Positions 2,976-18,629 of a stretch of 23,176 nt of DNA are shown here, in pieces. This DNA is from a virus. Positions within the stretch are counted from its first letter, which is position 1, and every line of letters starts with the position of its first letter. The notes under the pieces are model-generated. The model saw nothing but the letters and a program-made list of their open reading frames with translations, did not search any database and was not told where the DNA came from. Where the stretch lies: the IMG/VR virus record IMGVR_UViG_3300009508_000064, positions 1-23,176 of that record; one strand, 5' to 3'. The translations under genes were made by a program, and so were the position numbers.

Positions 2976-3332
2976 ATGGCAAAAGGTAAACAAGCGAATA
3001 ACGCAAGTAATCCCGGTGGACGTAAGAAGGGTATGAACAAGAAGATATTGGATTCCCGGAAGAATCTGCGGACTTGGGGAGAGCTTGAGTATAAGGTATC
3101 TCAGGACGTTCTGGATGCTTATAATATCATCAGGAATGTAATGAATGACCAAGAAGCTCCTGCGGCTACTCGTCGGAGTGCAGCTAACGATGTTATTGCA
3201 TTCTTCGAGAAGATGAAGGATGAGTCTGAGAAAGTTGTTCAAGAGTTTGAAGAAGAATACAATGGTGAGCAAGGGGGGACTAAAGAAAGCGAAAGTGACA
3301 ATGTTCAGCCTTTGTTCAAATGGAGTGAGTAA
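2976..3332 (+). CDS. terS: Terminase small subunit (DNA recognition for packaging)
   Basis: The 118-residue protein is called the small terminase subunit, which binds phage DNA and hands it to the large subunit. The N-terminus (NPGGRKKGMNKKI) resembles the basic start of many phage small terminases. The middle is helical and charged (TRRSAANDVIAFFEKMKDESEKVV), which suits an oligomerising segment, and the C-terminus is acidic with a final LFKWSE that could contact TerL. GGAGAG precedes the ATG. The strongest support is context: it is immediately upstream of terL. The length is on the short side for the family. Confidence 0.75.
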   Translation: MAKGKQANNASNPGGRKKGMNKKILDSRKNLRTWGELEYKVSQDVLDAYNIIRNVMNDQEAPAATRRSAANDVIAFFEKMKDESEKVVQEFEEEYNGEQGGTKESESDNVQPLFKWSE

Positions 3333-3353: not shown

Positions 3354-3455
3354 TTGAGTAACGGTCAATATGTTATAAGTCCACAAAAAGGTCCGCAGGA
3401 GAGCTTCCTCAGGGCCGATGAAACTTATGTATTTTATGGCGGTGGTGCCGGGGGT
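3354..3455 (+). CDS. terL: Terminase large subunit, exon 1 of 4 (residues 1-34)
   Basis: TerL is the packaging motor: an N-terminal ATPase and a C-terminal RNase H-like nuclease. Exon 1 starts at TTG (3354), with GGAGG 6 bases upstream; the frame is closed upstream by TAA and offers no ATG. It encodes 34 residues ending YGGGAGG, the first part of the Walker A loop. The frame then hits TAG within intron 1. Joining to 3787 completes GGGAGGGKT. The spliced protein has 497 residues, the usual TerL size, with Walker A at 29-37, Walker B at 135-139 and nuclease Asp residues near 302, 368 and 455. Confidence 0.88.
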
Positions 3456-3786
3456 AATGAGATTTGTTCTCACTTACTGCTCCCCTAGAGCGAAATCTCT
3501 AGTAAACAACCTGTCTAATTGCTGGGAACTCTTGTCAGACAATAAGTAGGCTACTGCATGGAAACATAGCAGCGACCCCTGAAAATCTTGTTGGTAGAGA
3601 CAATCAGCAGCGAAGCCTGTAAAGTACAGGAACGTTCAACGATCAGTCGAAAGACGTAGACTCAAGCGGGTCGAAACGGCAGGCACCTAAACAGTATCGC
3701 TGTAGGTGAAGATATGATCTTATCTGCACGGAGACGTGTAGCAGTTTTATAACGGGCAGTCTGTAGCGAAGACTGTTGAAATCTTG
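3456..3786 (+). ncRNA. Group I intron 1 of terL, no ORF (331 nt)
   Basis: The exon ends in T (3455) and the intron ends in G (3786), as group I introns require. Exon GGGGGU pairs with the guide GCUCCC at 3479-3484, with a U-G wobble at the splice site. P7 is formed by GATCA (3641-3645) and TGATC (3715-3719). The P9 hairpin TCTGCACGGAGACGTGTAGCAG-like region follows at about 3722-3744, and CAGTCT/AGACTG forms the last stem before the 3' end. The P4-P5 segments (AATTGCTGGGAACTC near 3517, GACAATCAGCAG near 3599) match those of intron 4. There is no open frame of note on the plus strand. Removing it restores the Walker A loop, which is strong independent support. Confidence 0.88.
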
Positions 3787-3861
3787 GGTAAGACGTGGGC
3801 AATACTTGCCGACAACCTTAAGTATATTAACGATCCAAACTATTTCTCGGTATTCTTCCGT
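3787..3861 (+). CDS. terL: Terminase large subunit, exon 2 of 4 (residues 35-59)
   Basis: This 75-base exon encodes 25 residues, GKTWAILADN through SVFFR. It supplies the Gly-Lys-Thr of Walker A, whose Lys and Thr bind ATP phosphates and Mg, and the following helix and strand of the ATPase core. The 5' boundary is set by completion of the Walker A motif and the 3' boundary by the in-frame TAA just after CGT in intron 2. Such a small exon between two introns is unusual in phages. Confidence 0.87.
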
Positions 3862-4109
3862 TAATTGTAGCGGCTTGGTAGAGAAATCTGCCTCGAATAA
3901 CTCCTCTAATTCAGGGGAAGTCCTAACGTAAAGTCGAGGATGATCCTGAGCCAAGGCTTAATAAGCAAGGTGCAACGACCAACCGCAAGGTGTAGGCTCA
4001 AGTGAGTCGAAACGGGGAGCACCCGCAAGGGTGGTGATATGGTCTGATCTTTATGGAAACATAAAGCTGATTGCGGGCAGAACTTAACGACTTCTGTTGA
4101 ACACTAATG
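3862..4109 (+). ncRNA. Group I intron 2 of terL, no ORF (248 nt)
   Basis: The intron lies between CGT (exon T at 3861) and AAT, and ends in TAATG with G4109 as the last base. Exon CCGU pairs with GCGG at 3870-3873, extended by the first intron bases UA with the UA before the guide. P7 is GACCA (3977-3981) with TGGTC (4040-4044), a compensatory change relative to the other introns. P4 segments are TTCAGGGGAAGTCC (about 3909) and ATCCTGAGCCAAGG (about 3943). The P9 hairpin and last stem (CAGAA/TTCTG) match those of introns 1, 3 and 4. It is compact and encodes no endonuclease. Confidence 0.87.
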
Positions 4110-4358
4110 AATACAACTACCGAAATAGACACAAATTTATGGCCCATGGCATTGAAGATGTACGACCCATTCTTAAAATATCAGAGTGGGCCGAAGCAAG
4201 GTAAGCTTCTACCGGGCGCTAGGATAAGGGATAAAGATAAAACAATAATCTGGCCTTCTGGTGCTAAGACACGCTTCAGTTATTTGCAGAATACAAAAGA
4301 CGCAATGGCTTGGTTCGGGAGCGAGCTGTCTCGGGTATATTTTGATGAATTCCAGCGT
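4110..4358 (+). CDS. terL: Terminase large subunit, exon 3 of 4 (residues 60-142)
   Basis: The exon encodes 83 residues from NTTTEIDTNL to YFDEFQR. It carries the Walker B strand VYFDE (protein residues 135-139), whose Asp binds Mg and Glu activates water for ATP hydrolysis. The end is placed after CGT (4356-4358) rather than after the next GGT. The reasons are that this gives DE-xxx-FTE, the spacing usual in TerL, and that GCGU then pairs with the guide GCGC at 4367-4370. Reading past the splice site meets TAA two codons later. Confidence 0.85.
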
Positions 4359-5203
4359 GGTTAAATGCGCCTTTATGTGGTGACACATATCGAAAACCCT
4401 TGTTAATTCGGTGGACACCCTTTGGTATTTAGTATATACTGAGTAATTAAGGGCAATACCGAGCCGAGCCTGTGCGAACAGGAAGGTGTAACGACTAATT
4501 GTAAGCCGCAAGCGATGGCGGTTGAAACACAAGGGGTTCTTTTTAATGTCAAGTAAGCAATGTTTCGATTGTAAAGAGGTAAAACTTTACTCGGAATTTA
4601 ACAGAAATCATAAAACCAAAGATAAACTAACGTGTTATTGCAAAAGCTGCACTAAGAAATCACGAGACAAGATGGTTGCATCTAGAGAGCAGATTTCTAA
4701 AGAAGATGCAAAAGTCTTTCACCAGCAATTAATAGACGAAGGTTCTCTATATCAATGCAGCACATGCAAAGAAAAGAAGGGTGCTGGGCATTTTTATTAC
4801 AAAAGAGATATTGGACAAGTTAGATTGTCAACTTCTCAGTGTAAAGAGTGTACACGGGATCAAGTTCGCTACAGAAAGTTCGGACTAGATTCTGGTGACG
4901 TTTATGCTATGTTGAGTGAGCAAGATTTCAAGTGTAAAATTTGTGGTATTGATTACGAGCAGTGGCGTGAAGATACAGGTAGAGATTTTCATATAGACCA
5001 TTGTCATACAACTAATGTAATCCGTGGGTTTATTTGTGGACATTGCAACCGAGGTTTAGGTGCTTTTTTGGATGATGTAGAAATCATGAAAAGTGCTATT
5101 CGGTATCTTGAAGAAGAACGTGATATAGTCTGATCTGCATGGTAACATGCAGCTGCAAGTAATGTTGCGGGGACAGGAGTAGCGTCCTGTTTTGAACACA
5201 ATG
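4359..5203 (+). ncRNA. Group I intron 3 of terL, with endonuclease ORF (845 nt)
   Basis: The intron follows T4358 and ends in CAATG with G5203. P1 is exon GCGU with guide GCGC (4367-4370). The core includes TTAATTCGGTGGACACCC (about 4402), GGCAATACCGAGCCGAGCC (about 4451), and P7 GACTA (4493-4497) with TAGTC (5126-5130). A P9 hairpin (CTGCATGGTAACATGCAG) and a terminal stem ACAGGA/TCCTGT follow. The endonuclease gene lies between the two halves of P7, thus in the P8 region, and its last codons overlap the 3' half of P7. Excision joins FDEFQR to FTEEQF. Confidence 0.88.
4546..5133 (+). CDS. Intron-encoded endonuclease VII-like (His-Me finger) protein
   Basis: The 195-residue protein ends in a domain like T4 endonuclease VII: CKICG (130-134), HIDHCHTT (149-156) with Asp151-His152, and GFICGHCNRGLG (161-172) with zinc Cys pair 164/167 and Asn168. 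This fold cuts DNA and is used by many intron homing enzymes. Upstream are further Cys pairs (6/9, 32/35, 71/74, 99/102) that could form additional zinc knuckles for DNA binding. The ATG at 4546 is preferred to an in-frame TTG at 4522 because AAGGGG lies before it at suitable distance. The stop TGA (5131-5133) directly abuts the 3' half of P7. It probably cleaves intronless terL near the Walker B codons, which is inference. Confidence 0.85.
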   Translation: MSSKQCFDCKEVKLYSEFNRNHKTKDKLTCYCKSCTKKSRDKMVASREQISKEDAKVFHQQLIDEGSLYQCSTCKEKKGAGHFYYKRDIGQVRLSTSQCKECTRDQVRYRKFGLDSGDVYAMLSEQDFKCKICGIDYEQWREDTGRDFHIDHCHTTNVIRGFICGHCNRGLGAFLDDVEIMKSAIRYLEEERDIV

Positions 5204-6271
5204 TTTACAGAAGAACAGTTCACTATTATAAGGTCTCGTTTGCGTTCTATGGCGAAGATGCCATCGGCTATGCGCTGTACGATGAACCCCGATAGTGGGC
5301 ATTTTGTTCTTGAATTCATCAAGCGATATCTGGACGACGAAGGTTATCCTATACGGGAGTATTCAGGAAGACGCGCCTACTTCATCATTCAAGGCGGTGA
5401 CATATATACAGATTGGGATTATGATTCTCTCAAAGAAAGGTTCCCTGACCAGAACCCACAAAGTTATTCCTATATCCCAAGTGTGCTTTCTGATAACAAG
5501 GCATTGACTGATTTCGAGCCGGGATACGAAGACATACTCAAGTCTTTGCCTGAGATCAAGCGTAAGCAACTCTTAGAAGGCTGCTGGTATGTCTCAGACA
5601 ACCATGCGATGTACTTTGATAGAACATGGCTGCACAAGATAGATGCTGTACCACCGAACTGTAAGGCTGTTAGAGGATGGGATAAGGCATCAGAAGAACC
5701 CAACCCCAACCTTCGTCATCCAGACTATACAGCTTCTGTAAAGATGTACAAGGATAAGCATGGGAATTTCTATCTGTGCAACGGTACGCGCTTCAGGAAG
5801 AAGTCTGGTGAGCGTGATATGATGATTCTCAACCAAGCAGAACACGATGGTCGAGACGTTTATCTAATAATGCCACAAGATCCCGGTGGGGCCGGTGCTG
5901 ATGCGTTCAGACACTCAACCAAGATGTTTCTTGAGGAAGGTTTTGTTGTCAAGAAAGACCCAATGCCCCCTACGAAACCTAAGTTGCAGAAGTTTGAACC
6001 GTTTGCTACAGCTTGCCAAAACGGTCAGGTGTATCTCGTAGAGAAAGATTGGGACCCTGATGTACTGAAGCAATACCTAGACGAACTTGAGTCATTCACG
6101 GGAGAGAGATCTTCTGCGAGTCGCAAGGACGATTTCGTGGATTGCACAGCATCAGCATTCAACAGTCTCTCAAGAGAAAAAGTAATCCCCCAATTCTCTC
6201 TAGGAGAATTCTCAAGCTCTAGTCCAACATCCTTCAAGAAACACAAGGATGAAACAGGGTATTACGATTGA
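5204..6271 (+). CDS. terL: Terminase large subunit, exon 4 of 4 (residues 143-497)
   Basis: This 355-residue segment finishes the ATPase (FTEEQF, RSRLR, and motif III at CTMNPD) and adds the RNase H-like nuclease. Candidate catalytic Asp residues are in RGWDKAS (302), PQDPGGAG (368) and DDFVDCTASAF (455). It opens directly after the intron 3' end AATG, so the ATG at 5201 or TTG at 5192 should not be taken as a start: both belong to the intron. The stop overlaps nothing, but a short P-loop gene begins 13 bases later. Confidence 0.9.
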   Translation, partial: FTEEQFTIIRSRLRSMAKMPSAMRCTMNPDSGHFVLEFIKRYLDDEGYPIREYSGRRAYFIIQGGDIYTDWDYDSLKERFPDQNPQSYSYIPSVLSDNKALTDFEPGYEDILKSLPEIKRKQLLEGCWYVSDNHAMYFDRTWLHKIDAVPPNCKAVRGWDKASEEPNPNLRHPDYTASVKMYKDKHGNFYLCNGTRFRKKSGERDMMILNQAEHDGRDVYLIMPQDPGGAGADAFRHSTKMFLEEGFVVKKDPMPPTKPKLQKFEPFATACQNGQVYLVEKDWDPDVLKQYLDELESFTGERSSASRKDDFVDCTASAFNSLSREKVIPQFSLGEFSSSSPTSFKKHKDETGYYD

Positions 6272-6533: not shown

Positions 6534-6589
6534 TTCAGAAGAATCTTTCCAATTATACCACAAAATAGTTAGCTTTTGAATGATTAGTG

Positions 6590-6618
6590 TAGACAACTAA
6601 AGATTTCTCTGTTAAAGT
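6590..6618 (+). promoter_or_regulatory. Rightward promoter for the head operon
   Basis: TAGACA (6590-6595) and TAAAGT (6613-6618) are 17 bases apart in the only sizeable gap between terL and the head genes. It would start transcription about 120 bases upstream of the portal gene. The -10 match is moderate. Confidence 0.5.
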
Positions 6619-6626
6619 ATTATTGT

Positions 6627-6664
6627 AGAAGGTTGTTATTGGGGACTATTTCCCAAAACCTTCT
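6627..6664 (+). repeat. Two-part hairpin in the portal leader
   Basis: AGAAGGTT (6627-6634) pairs with AACCTTCT (6657-6664), and inside it TTGGGGA pairs with TTTCCCAA, leaving a tiny loop. No U-tract follows. A second short hairpin, TTTGGT/ACCAAA, lies at 6684-6700. Their place right after the promoter suggests RNA stabilisation or control of portal translation; this is inference. Confidence 0.5.
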
Positions 6665-15576: not shown

Positions 15577-16692
15577 ATGGCAGACGGTGATAGAGTTGCC
15601 GGTATATATTCGGAGATTAAGTATAAGTTTGACAGACGTTCCATACAAAATCTCCGAAAGTTTAAACGAGACTTAATGGAGCTAAAGAATAATCTTAGGT
15701 CTGTTCAACAGATGTCTCGTAAGAATGTTAAGATTGGCTTTACGGCTAATAATGCTAAAGTCAGCAAACAGGTTGCTAAGGCACAAAAGGAAACAGCCAA
15801 GGCTTCTAAAGATCAGGTTGATAGGTCCGCAAAAGTCTGGCGAATGAAAGAGAAGATCCTCAAGACTCAACAGAGAGAAGCTAGGGTAGCCAAACAAGCT
15901 GCTGAAGCAAGGTCTCGTCAGAGTGTTGATAGGTCTTCAAGGGTTTGGAAGCAGAAAGAAAGGATTCTAAAAGAACAAGAGAGACAATCCCAAGCTGAAG
16001 TTTCTAGGGCCGGTAAAGTTTATAAGCAAAGACAAAAGATTACACGGGAGATGGCCCGCCAGAAGAAGCTCTCTGGAAATGCTATGCGAAGCGAAAGGGA
16101 TATTCAGGATCGTATGGCAAGGAATCAGGCAAAGCTCGGAAGGATTTCTGATCAGTCTGACGGTAGAGTTACAGAAAGGAATCTAAGGGCTGCACAACGA
16201 GCACAAGAGCGTTACAACAGAAAGCTCAGGGATGGCATCATTACGATGGGGCAGTACAACAGGGCTTCTCAGAATGTCACAGAGGGGCTTAGGCGACAAG
16301 GAAGGGCTGCTAAGAATACAACTATGAGTTTTGACAGGATGCGAACTAGCCTTGCCGGGGCCACGGGAGCGTTCAGTGGATTTGCTGGTGCTGTTGGTAT
16401 TGGTGCTATCGGTGGGCAGTTTGAGAGTGTTCAGATCATGCTTGAGACCGCTATGGGTGCTGAAGACGCTGCAAGCACTATGGAATTTTTGATTGAACAA
16501 TCACAGAGGCTTGGTGTAGGGGCAATCGAAACTTCCAAAGGTTTCGCTAGGTATGCTATTGCTGGTCGTAAGATGGGATTCACTAACGAACAGTTGCGCG
16601 AACAATTTCTTGGCGTGGCAGAGGCTGCTACAACTTTTGGCCTCCGTCAAGAGGAGATAACAGGTGTTATCAGAAGTCTCGAACAGATGGCT
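15577..16692 (+). CDS. Tape measure protein, exon 1 of 2 (residues 1-372)
   Basis: The tape measure sets tail length and is carried in the tube lumen. Exon 1 encodes 372 residues: a Lys/Arg/Gln-rich coiled region (about 20-240) with internal repeats, a Gly/Ala-rich hydrophobic segment (about 259-280, GATGAFSGFAGAVGIGAIGG), then a conserved region ending VIRSLEQMA. The ATG follows the chaperone stop directly. The frame hits TAG immediately after codon 372, within intron 4. Spliced to 17760 it makes a 661-residue protein, which at about 1.5 angstroms per residue predicts a tail near 100 nm. Confidence 0.88.
15817..15984 (+). repeat. Internal repeat in the tape measure coiled region
   Basis: Residues 81-100 (VDRSAKVWRMKEKILKTQQR) and 117-136 (VDRSSRVWKQKERILKEQER) are near copies starting 36 codons apart, at 15817 and 15925. 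A weaker third copy begins near residue 144 (RAGKVYKQRQKITREM). The DNA copies are also similar (GTTGATAGGTC at both starts), so the duplication is recent enough to see at base level. Confidence 0.7.
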
Positions 16693-17759
16693 TAGAGTTT
16701 GAGGTCATTTAAAACTCCTTTAATTGCGGGAAACTCCAGCTAGACTTTAGATAGGATACTCGGTGGTGACACACGGGCGACCCCTAAAAACGCTAAAGGT
16801 ATGGACAATCCGCAGGTAATTGTGTATACTTCGTAAGTAAAGCTGTGTAACTTTATTTATGGAGGATTTGACTTGAATATTAAAGAGATTAATGGTTTTC
16901 CCGATTATTATATCACAGATTGTGGAGATGTCTACTCTGCTAAAAGAGGTGGTTGGAAGAAAAGAAAACCAACTCCAGATAAAGATGGTTACCTAACCAT
17001 TGCGATATCGCCAGATGGAAACTTAACACGGAAAACTTTTAAAATTCATCGGTTAGTAGTTGAATATTTTCTTACTTCTGACATTACCGGCTTAGATGTA
17101 AATCACAAGAACGGGGTGAAGTGGGATAATAGAATGAGTAACTTAGAACTTGTTACTCATTCACAAAATATGAAACACGCAGCCGAGAAAAACTTTTTAC
17201 CAAGGGGCGAAAAAATCTGGTGTTCAAAACATACTGAAGACCAGATTCACCAAGCCTGTGAATTACTACAAAATCCTGATTTGGAGATAAAGGATGTTGC
17301 TAGAATTACGGGCGTTTCTGAAAACATGTGCTCGGGTATCTACAACGGCGCTAAGTGGCAGTATATCGCTATAAATTATGACTTCTCTAAAAAACGTAGA
17401 CGTGGTGGAAATAACAGACCACTTTCCGACGAAACAGTAGCCGATATTTGTAGACGAATTCTGCGCGGAGACAATGCTTCCAAAATAGCCAGAGATTTAA
17501 AAATTAGTTACTACGGAGTGCGCAGGATTAAGAGTGGTAAATATTATACTGATGTATCAAGTCAATACTTACACAAAACTCCAAAGACTATCGAAAGCAC
17601 ATCATAAGATGGAAGTGAGTAGAGTACACCACAAGCGATTGGTGGTGGAAAAGGGGAGAAGACCTAAAAAGTCTTAAGATATAGTCTGGTCTGCGTGGAG
17701 ACACGTAGCGGCACTTAAGTGTGCGGGGAGGGGTTTAGCGCCCCCTTCTGAACATAATG
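16693..17759 (+). ncRNA. Group I intron 4, in the tape measure gene (1067 nt)
   Basis: The exon ends in T16692 and the intron ends in AATG with G17759. P1 is an 8-bp helix of exon AGAUGGCU with guide GGUCAUUU (16705-16712). P4-P5 segments are AATTGCGGGAAACTCC (about 16722) and GACAATCCGCAG (about 16804). P7 is GACTA (17586-17590) with TAGTC (17682-17686). The P9 hairpin (CTGCGTGGAGACACGTAG) and a GGGG/CCCC final stem follow. The endonuclease gene fills the P6 side of the core, and its last codons contain the 5' half of P7. Splicing joins SLEQMA to SKGQVMS, an unbroken tape measure sequence. Confidence 0.9.
16873..17607 (+). CDS. Intron-encoded NUMOD4-HNH homing endonuclease
   Basis: The 244-residue protein starts with a NUMOD4-like motif (INGFPDYYITDCGDVYSAKR), then an HNH nuclease: IHRLVVEYF (His59), LDVNHKNG (Asn77-His78) and WDNRMSNLELVTHSQN (Asn86, Asn90). 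Two helix-turn-helix-like segments follow, about 133-158 (IKDVARITGVSENMCSGIYNG) and 195-225 (IARDLKISYYGVRRIKSGKY), which would recognise the long target site. Start is TTG, 7 bases from GGAGG; the frame has no ATG nearby. It differs in family from the terL intron enzyme. Its presumed target is the intronless tape measure gene around the AAGATGGCT junction side, which is inference. Confidence 0.88.
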   Translation: MNIKEINGFPDYYITDCGDVYSAKRGGWKKRKPTPDKDGYLTIAISPDGNLTRKTFKIHRLVVEYFLTSDITGLDVNHKNGVKWDNRMSNLELVTHSQNMKHAAEKNFLPRGEKIWCSKHTEDQIHQACELLQNPDLEIKDVARITGVSENMCSGIYNGAKWQYIAINYDFSKKRRRGGNNRPLSDETVADICRRILRGDNASKIARDLKISYYGVRRIKSGKYYTDVSSQYLHKTPKTIESTS

Positions 17760-18629
17760 TCTAAGGGGCAAGTAATGAGTGAGGAATTGAAACTCCAGCT
17801 TGGTGATAGAATGCCCGGCGTTCTGCAACTTGCCGCAGAATCTATGGAGATGACAACTGAGACCTTTCTCAAGAAAATGGAAGAAGGTTTGATAAAGTCC
17901 AAGGACTTCTTGCCTGTCTTCACCAAAGCTCTGCGTGAAATGGCAGCACCCGGTCTTGAGAAAGCATTTAAGACCATGAACGTTGCTATGAAGCGTATGG
18001 TCCAAAACGGCAAGCTTCTAATAGACGCAATATTCCAATCAGGAGTTGGCGAACTATTCACCCAAATATTCAACAGTCTTACTGACGTATTCCAAATCAT
18101 GCAGCCCATAATGAGCTTACTGTTTGGATTTCTGTCAGCATTCATAAAAGCTGTCATATTCCCGATTAGACTGGCGATAGCACTTATTGCTGATCTTGTA
18201 GATATGGTTGCGACAGGGTTCCAGAACGTATTCGGTGTAAGCCTTGATAAAGCTATGGCGAAGATCGGCAACTTCTTTGGTTTTCTTACCAGTATCTTCT
18301 CGGGTATATTTAGCTTCGTTGGTAAAATAGTATCGGGAATTGGAGGGCTCATTGGTAAAGTATCACCAACAATGGCTGTTGCCAGAAAGTTCCCCGGAGC
18401 ATCTGAGACAATCAAGCAAGCCACTACCAAGGCAGGTGAAATTGCCGGTAAGATCGGCAGAAGCACTTATACGAAAGCTGGTGGTGTTGGTGCATCAACT
18501 TCTGAAGTAATAGGCTCTGAAGCCGCTTCTAGGGTCTTTGTAGAATTCACCGGAGAAGGCAAAGAATACTTGCGTCAGAACGAGCGAGAGAAGCCTAGAA
18601 CAACTATGTCGTCAAACATTAGGGGGTAA
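17760..18629 (+). CDS. Tape measure protein, exon 2 of 2 (residues 373-661)
   Basis: This 289-residue segment begins SKGQVMSEELKLQLGDRMPG, a conserved tape measure stretch, and contains two long hydrophobic regions (about 477-522, including IMSLLFGFLSAFIKAVIF, and about 543-572, NFFGFLTSIFSGIFSFVGKI). Such segments are thought to enter the host membrane when DNA is delivered. The ATG at 17757 is the last bases of intron 4, not a start, and no Shine-Dalgarno site stands before it. The C-terminus is Ala/Gly/Ser-rich and ends in a basic tail. Confidence 0.87.
   Translation, partial: SKGQVMSEELKLQLGDRMPGVLQLAAESMEMTTETFLKKMEEGLIKSKDFLPVFTKALREMAAPGLEKAFKTMNVAMKRMVQNGKLLIDAIFQSGVGELFTQIFNSLTDVFQIMQPIMSLLFGFLSAFIKAVIFPIRLAIALIADLVDMVATGFQNVFGVSLDKAMAKIGNFFGFLTSIFSGIFSFVGKIVSGIGGLIGKVSPTMAVARKFPGASETIKQATTKAGEIAGKIGRSTYTKAGGVGASTSEVIGSEAASRVFVEFTGEGKEYLRQNEREKPRTTMSSNIRG

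Follow-up and report, generated by a model that had tools for sequence, protein, structure and literature searches.

Organization of the terL Locus

The window analyzed here, i.e., positions 1 to 23,176 of the IMG/VR virus record IMGVR_UViG_3300009508_000064, carries at 3354-6271 a gene for the large terminase subunit (TerL) whose reading frame is shut by in-frame stop codons in three insertions, with no frame being open throughout, as claimed in a preliminary description of this DNA. Excising these insertions (introns 1-3 in Table 1) results in a 1494-nt in-frame sequence encoding a 497-residue TerL, and the boundaries proposed there proved to be exact to the base. All three introns are in phase 0 and every exon is in phase, including the exon of only 75 bases already noticed between introns 1 and 2. 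In line with the complete ATPase and nuclease motifs previously ascribed to it, the spliced product shows Walker A, Walker B and an RNase H-like nuclease (Pfam; alignment with five homologues), matches Pfam Terminase_6N (E 2e-18) and Terminase_6C (E 4e-9), and aligns with the proteins of Alteromonas phage PT11-V22 (46%), Rheinheimera phage Barba19A (45%) and Vibrio phage ICP1 (about 40-41%). A PDB search with TerL gave no match at E 0.001, and an NCBIfam search on the window ORFs only noise far under the cut-off. The TTG-AGT-AAC start of the gene is identical in two related viral contigs, L007 and L008, and a further contig, L006, which is 99.99% identical to the window over 12.3 kb, has the identical terL arrangement. 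Hence, the three-intron structure is not a single-contig assembly slip, with L006 and the window possibly stemming from one sample. From its position, the 118-aa ORF directly upstream probably encodes the small terminase.

TABLE 1. Features of the terL region and of the tape-measure intron in the window.
Feature	Position	Strand	Remarks
Small upstream ORF	2976..3332	+	118 aa; without Pfam match
terL exon 1	3354..3455	+	34 codons; starts with TTG; last codons GGG GGT, within the Walker A loop
Intron 1, group I	3456..3786	+	331 nt; ORF-less; phase 0; between G34 and G35 of Walker A
terL exon 2	3787..3861	+	75 nt; 25 codons; GKTWAILADNLKYINDPNYFSVFFR
Intron 2, group I	3862..4109	+	248 nt; ORF-less; phase 0; after R59
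terL exon 3	4110..4358	+	83 codons; Walker B VYFDE inside
Intron 3, group I	4359..5203	+	845 nt; phase 0; after R142, just past Walker B
Intron-3 ORF, EndoVII-type His-Me/HNH homing endonuclease	4546..5133	+	ATG at 4546 (TTG at 4522 also possible)
terL exon 4	5204..6271	+	355 codons and stop; remaining ATPase and RNase H-like nuclease
Fourth group I intron, tape-measure gene	16693..17759	+	NUMOD4/HNH_3 ORF at 16873-17607 in the P6 region (Pfam)

Besides, two non-coding stretches at 6550-6641 (89%) and about 2852-2975 (about 82%) resemble L008, while the TerL protein is only 70% identical, and might represent late promoters or packaging sites. On the minus strand at 138-704, ahead of the packaging genes, lies a homing-endonuclease-like gene (HNH_3 and weak AP2).

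Group I Identity of the terL Introns

The group I character of the insertions, as first proposed, is now backed by a covariance model, a check of helices and P10, intron-free junctions in relatives and compensatory changes. At a gathering score of 50, the Rfam model RF00028 recovers intron 1 (3455-3741, 77.7 bits, E 1.8e-18) and intron 2 (3852-4066, 77.6 bits, E 2e-18), the core of the latter resembling introns from Twort and further staphylococcal phages (74-78%). Intron 3 stays below this threshold because its ORF splits the match in two; the flanking halves at 4349-4621 (30.5 bits) and 4979-5152 (25.9 bits) are each sub-threshold but reach E 1e-5 and 3e-4, respectively, in a 1-kb search. 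Within the window, RF00028 is the only Rfam element found at gathering score, and no tRNA was detected.

In each terL intron, helices P1, P3, P4, P7, P8, P9 and P10 can be assigned. The P4 strands (UUGCUG/CAGCAG, UUCAGG/CCUGAG and UUCGGU/ACCGAG) pair at all six positions, with the usual terminal U-G, and in intron 3 helices P3, P7 and P8 are formed by strands on either side of the ORF. All four introns of the window, i.e., the three in terL and one in the tape-measure gene, possess a P1 with a U·G wobble at the 5' splice site as well as a terminal G, and their guides pair with the start of the 3' exon over P10 lengths of 6, 5, 4 and 4 bp, the value for intron 3 being 4 bp. Introns of relatives likewise end in G. 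P7.2 pairs were found in introns 1-3. Subgroup IA is marked by additional P7.1/P7.2 stems in the P7-P3 interval, and membership of the introns in it is tentative. For introns 1 and 2, minimum-free-energy folding was only modestly superior to that of shuffled sequences (z of -2.4 and -1.8, respectively), and this weak evidence was given no weight.

Covariation could be followed for intron 1, introns 2 and 3 being without close homologues at the same site. Among 62 listed pairs compared with the L008 intron inserted at the same position, 49 are unchanged, seven show double changes, four are changed on one side and two are not kept. The corresponding intron of Pseudoalteromonas phage J2-1 is too divergent to align with intron 1 and was left out of this alignment.

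Splice Junctions

The splice sites given in the preliminary description agree with three lines of evidence, namely the P1, terminal G and P10 features, empty junctions in relatives and the length of the PT11-V22 homologue. In L007 (80%) and L008 (70%), exon 2 runs unbroken into exons 3-4 as one open stretch of unchanged length and, therefore, junctions 2 and 3 are fixed. Junction 1 lies in the P-loop, where the homologue in Alteromonas phage PT11-V22, being free of introns, has the same length.

The Intron-3 Nuclease and the Tape-Measure Intron

The ORF of intron 3 matches Pfam Endonuclease_7 (E 6e-17) and sits in the P8 loop, with its stop codon, in our reading, within P7. The phage proteins most similar to it belong to Listeria phage LPML1 (45%) and to rV5-like phages, where they are encoded in terL or next to it (37%). 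An empty exon 3-4 site, the putative target of this nuclease, is present in terL of both L007 and L008. A 62-base stretch near the 3' end of intron 3 recurs with 93.5% identity in the tail of an insertion that interrupts the thymidylate synthase gene in Erwinia phage Joad; the nuclease of that insertion is of the GIY-YIG and not of the EndoVII type. Since the tail is shared and the nuclease is not, the core and the nuclease of intron 3 differ in their history.

A fourth group I intron, which was not part of the initial claim, splits the tape-measure gene at 15577-18629. It is matched by RF00028 in two halves (29.1 and 19.4 bits) and has a P1 of 8 bp. Parts of this intron share 75-79% identity with introns in the nuclease domain of the L007 and L008 terL genes, and this similarity suggests that one intron family may have moved between the tape-measure gene and terL. 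Dense clusters of four RF00028 matches within 1.7 kb, some about 60 bases apart, occur in J2-1 (MF370964.1 101680-103401, W02) and in a freshwater ICP1-like genome (G008:C1:53740-55301), probably in tape-measure genes as well.

Proposed Mechanism and Alternatives

From these data, we consider it very probable that the locus is a working phage large terminase gene whose pre-mRNA bears three autocatalytic group I (IA-like) introns. In the course of splicing, the last exon base (U) would pair with the internal-guide G in P1, guanosine would attack the 5' site, and the freed exon, aligned with the 3' exon by P10, would then attack after the terminal G. Joining of exons 1-4 in frame would yield the single 497-residue TerL, and the in-frame stops in the first ~33 intron bases would halt ribosomes ahead of the catalytic cores. 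Intron 3 is likely mobile through its own EndoVII-type homing endonuclease, while the ORF-less introns 1 and 2 may have lost their own endonuclease or might use one in trans. As to their persistence, we propose that the introns are retained because the coding sequence around the ATPase motifs, in which they are sited, is highly conserved, so that homing finds constant targets and any imprecise loss would kill the phage.

Alternative splicing, in which exon 2 or exon 3 would be skipped in a sizeable share of transcripts beside formation of full TerL, is unlikely, albeit the best of the other explanations. Skipping of exon 2 would keep the frame, all introns being in phase 0 and exon 2 being a multiple of three, and would lead to a TerL whose nuclease domain is intact but which lacks residues 35-59, and thus the Walker A lysine. 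Both Twort orf142 and the SIOphi terminase are known to skip exons (PMC11878797). Moreover, the guide of intron 2 resembles that of intron 3, each being able to form three of its four pairs with the exon of the other, and with a P1 of just 4 bp in both introns mis-splicing between them would be conceivable. However, cognate exon-guide pairing amounts to 6, 4 and 4 pairs versus at most 3 for any non-cognate combination, with only 2 for exon 1 and the guides of introns 2 or 3, which counts against skipping of exon 2 and, less strongly, against skipping of exon 3.

It is very improbable, in turn, that terL is decaying or dead in a defective phage and that the insertions are debris no longer splicing. 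An essential gene is interrupted three times in frame and its unspliced product would have merely 44 residues, but in all four exons non-synonymous changes are much rarer than synonymous ones, even in the 25-codon exon 2 (pN 0.06-0.08 versus pS 0.90-0.98), i.e., purifying selection acts on every terL exon. Likewise, cores and splice sites of all introns as well as the EndoVII domain are intact, compensatory changes are present, the downstream portal, capsid and tail genes are intact, and a second contig has the same arrangement. Least probable of all is a separate translation of the exons to a split TerL assembled from several polypeptides without RNA splicing. Split phage enzymes such as an endonuclease-split ribonucleotide reductase do exist (cited in PMC10448857) and a TTG at 5192 precedes exon 4 in the ORF listing, but exon 1 would stop inside the P-loop, exon 2 alone comprises 25 codons, and a split protein would need neither the complete group I cores nor the exact in-frame junctions that the introns show.

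Intron Insertion Sites Across Relatives

By scanning viral contigs with a TerL alignment, 33 loci were obtained and their exons mapped in the residue numbering of the window. Altogether, about 14 insertion points can be distinguished in the TerL of relatives, five of them in Walker A and six around Walker B (Table 2). For the second intron of rV5, the guessed 3' splice site lacked a terminal G and only the approximate position was kept. RF00028 support exists for 11 of the 15 Walker A insertions in the window and the viral-contig loci; those of L045, L048, L052 and L062 are deduced from the split frame. When taking sites as independent, the binomial probability is ~2e-6 for 5 of 14 falling in 8 Walker A residues and ~3e-6 for 6 of 14 in 16 Walker B residues, values to be read with the caveat that independence is doubtful, as neighbors in the glycine run may be slid copies, and that the residue ranges were picked after seeing the data.

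TABLE 2. Intron insertion points in TerL (window residue numbering).
Region	Position	Carriers
Walker A	after 30	L045, L048, L052, L058, L059
Walker A	after 31	ICP1
Walker A	after 32	L007, Barba, L040, L060, L062
Walker A	after 34	window, L008, J2-1
Walker A	after 35	L064; the very distant Nitrincola phage 1M3-16
	after 59	window only (among mapped loci)
Walker B region	codon 127	L057, L058, L059, J2-1, J2-1_QLiu-2017
Walker B region	codon 137	Aeromonas phage phiA009
Walker B region	after 138	L064
Walker B region	after 140	rV5, MaxBurger
Walker B region	codon 142, phase 1	L062
Walker B region	after 142	window
	about 237	rV5 (second intron)
Nuclease domain	after 452 (D452)	L007, L008

The nuclease-domain introns are located at 6931-7999 in L007 and 3553-4615 in L008. 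In the latter, the exon 3' of the intron shows 84% DNA identity to the window versus about 67% in the preceding exon, and this step would fit a co-conversion tract.

In the open-access literature, we found no paper mapping group I introns onto TerL motifs. Tentatively, and with somewhat less than even confidence, the ATPase motifs of TerL might be regarded as a general, repeatedly used landing zone for group I introns in distantly related phages (five points in six Walker A codons, six in sixteen around Walker B), convergent with TerL inteins; the window would then be the most loaded known member of its clade, and stacking of introns possibly delays TerL production. This wider pattern of site targeting around the ATPase motifs is of more interest than the three-intron case itself, and with the insertion-site map it becomes directly testable why catalytic motifs are the targets of mobile introns. 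For two of the three sites in the window terL, natural intron-minus alleles exist.

In L068, L069, L039, L040 and L060, the annotated or apparent terL starts at Walker A because an intron cuts off exon 1. Such missing of first exons by annotation applies to ICP1-type and Barba records; it is already published for ICP1, and the record of Rheinheimera phage Barba19A still has a truncated terL. These omissions matter since TerL often serves as a marker in classifying phages.

Comparison With Known Intron-Bearing Phage Genes

The window adds a cleanly resolved three-intron terL to a phage clade with Rheinheimera Barbavirus, Alteromonas, Pseudoalteromonas J2-1 and ICP1 phages as its relatives. The preliminary assessment that three introns in one gene, with so small an exon, are uncommon is only partly right. 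Among the mapped loci, the window is alone in having three terL introns, the other complete ones having 0-2, but precedents are given by rV5, Bastillevirinae, Twort orf142 and the ICP1 tape-measure gene, plus the closely spaced intron clusters in related phages. Hence, the window terL is a well-defined further case of already published multi-intron packaging genes.

Among the closest cases are the Bastillevirinae SIOphi and phiAGATE, where terL has two or three group I introns and splicing was demonstrated in vitro and in vivo (PMC11878797, 2025). In SIOphi, three RF00028 matches lie within 2 kb at 21.9-23.9 kb, a cluster taken to be in its terL. Unlike the window, these are Bacillus phages, and the dominant SIOphi terL product skips an exon (PMC11878797).

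Related TerL proteins are encoded by Escherichia phage rV5 and other Vequintavirinae (DQ832317, MZ501093). The rV5 gene consists of three segments with two introns (PMC3606486), one of them just past Walker B, as in the window, although the site shared with MaxBurger lies two codons upstream of that used here. The nuclease encoded in the MaxBurger intron at this site is likewise of the EndoVII type and shares 37% identity with that of the window. In contrast to the latter, rV5 terL has no Walker A intron and carries its second intron much further downstream (Table 2).

In ICP1, splicing of a single terL intron was demonstrated by RNA-seq and RT-PCR (PMC10448857). This intron resides in the same Walker A loop as intron 1, three codons away, with a homing endonuclease gene adjoining terL, whereas in the window the nuclease ORF is inside intron 3. 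The ICP1 tape-measure gene, in addition, has three introns with HNH-3 endonucleases (PMC10448857). The tail tube gene orf142 of Twort, reported to contain three group I introns and to undergo exon skipping (Landthaler and Shub 1999, as cited in PMC11878797), is a different gene in a phage of another host, yet one of its introns is 74% like intron 2 over 70% of the length.

Finally, TerL inteins of mycobacteriophages concentrate in the P-loop, Walker B and C-motif (PMC5050341). By position, the Walker A and Walker B intron sites parallel these published hotspots, although inteins are removed by protein splicing and are not RNA introns.
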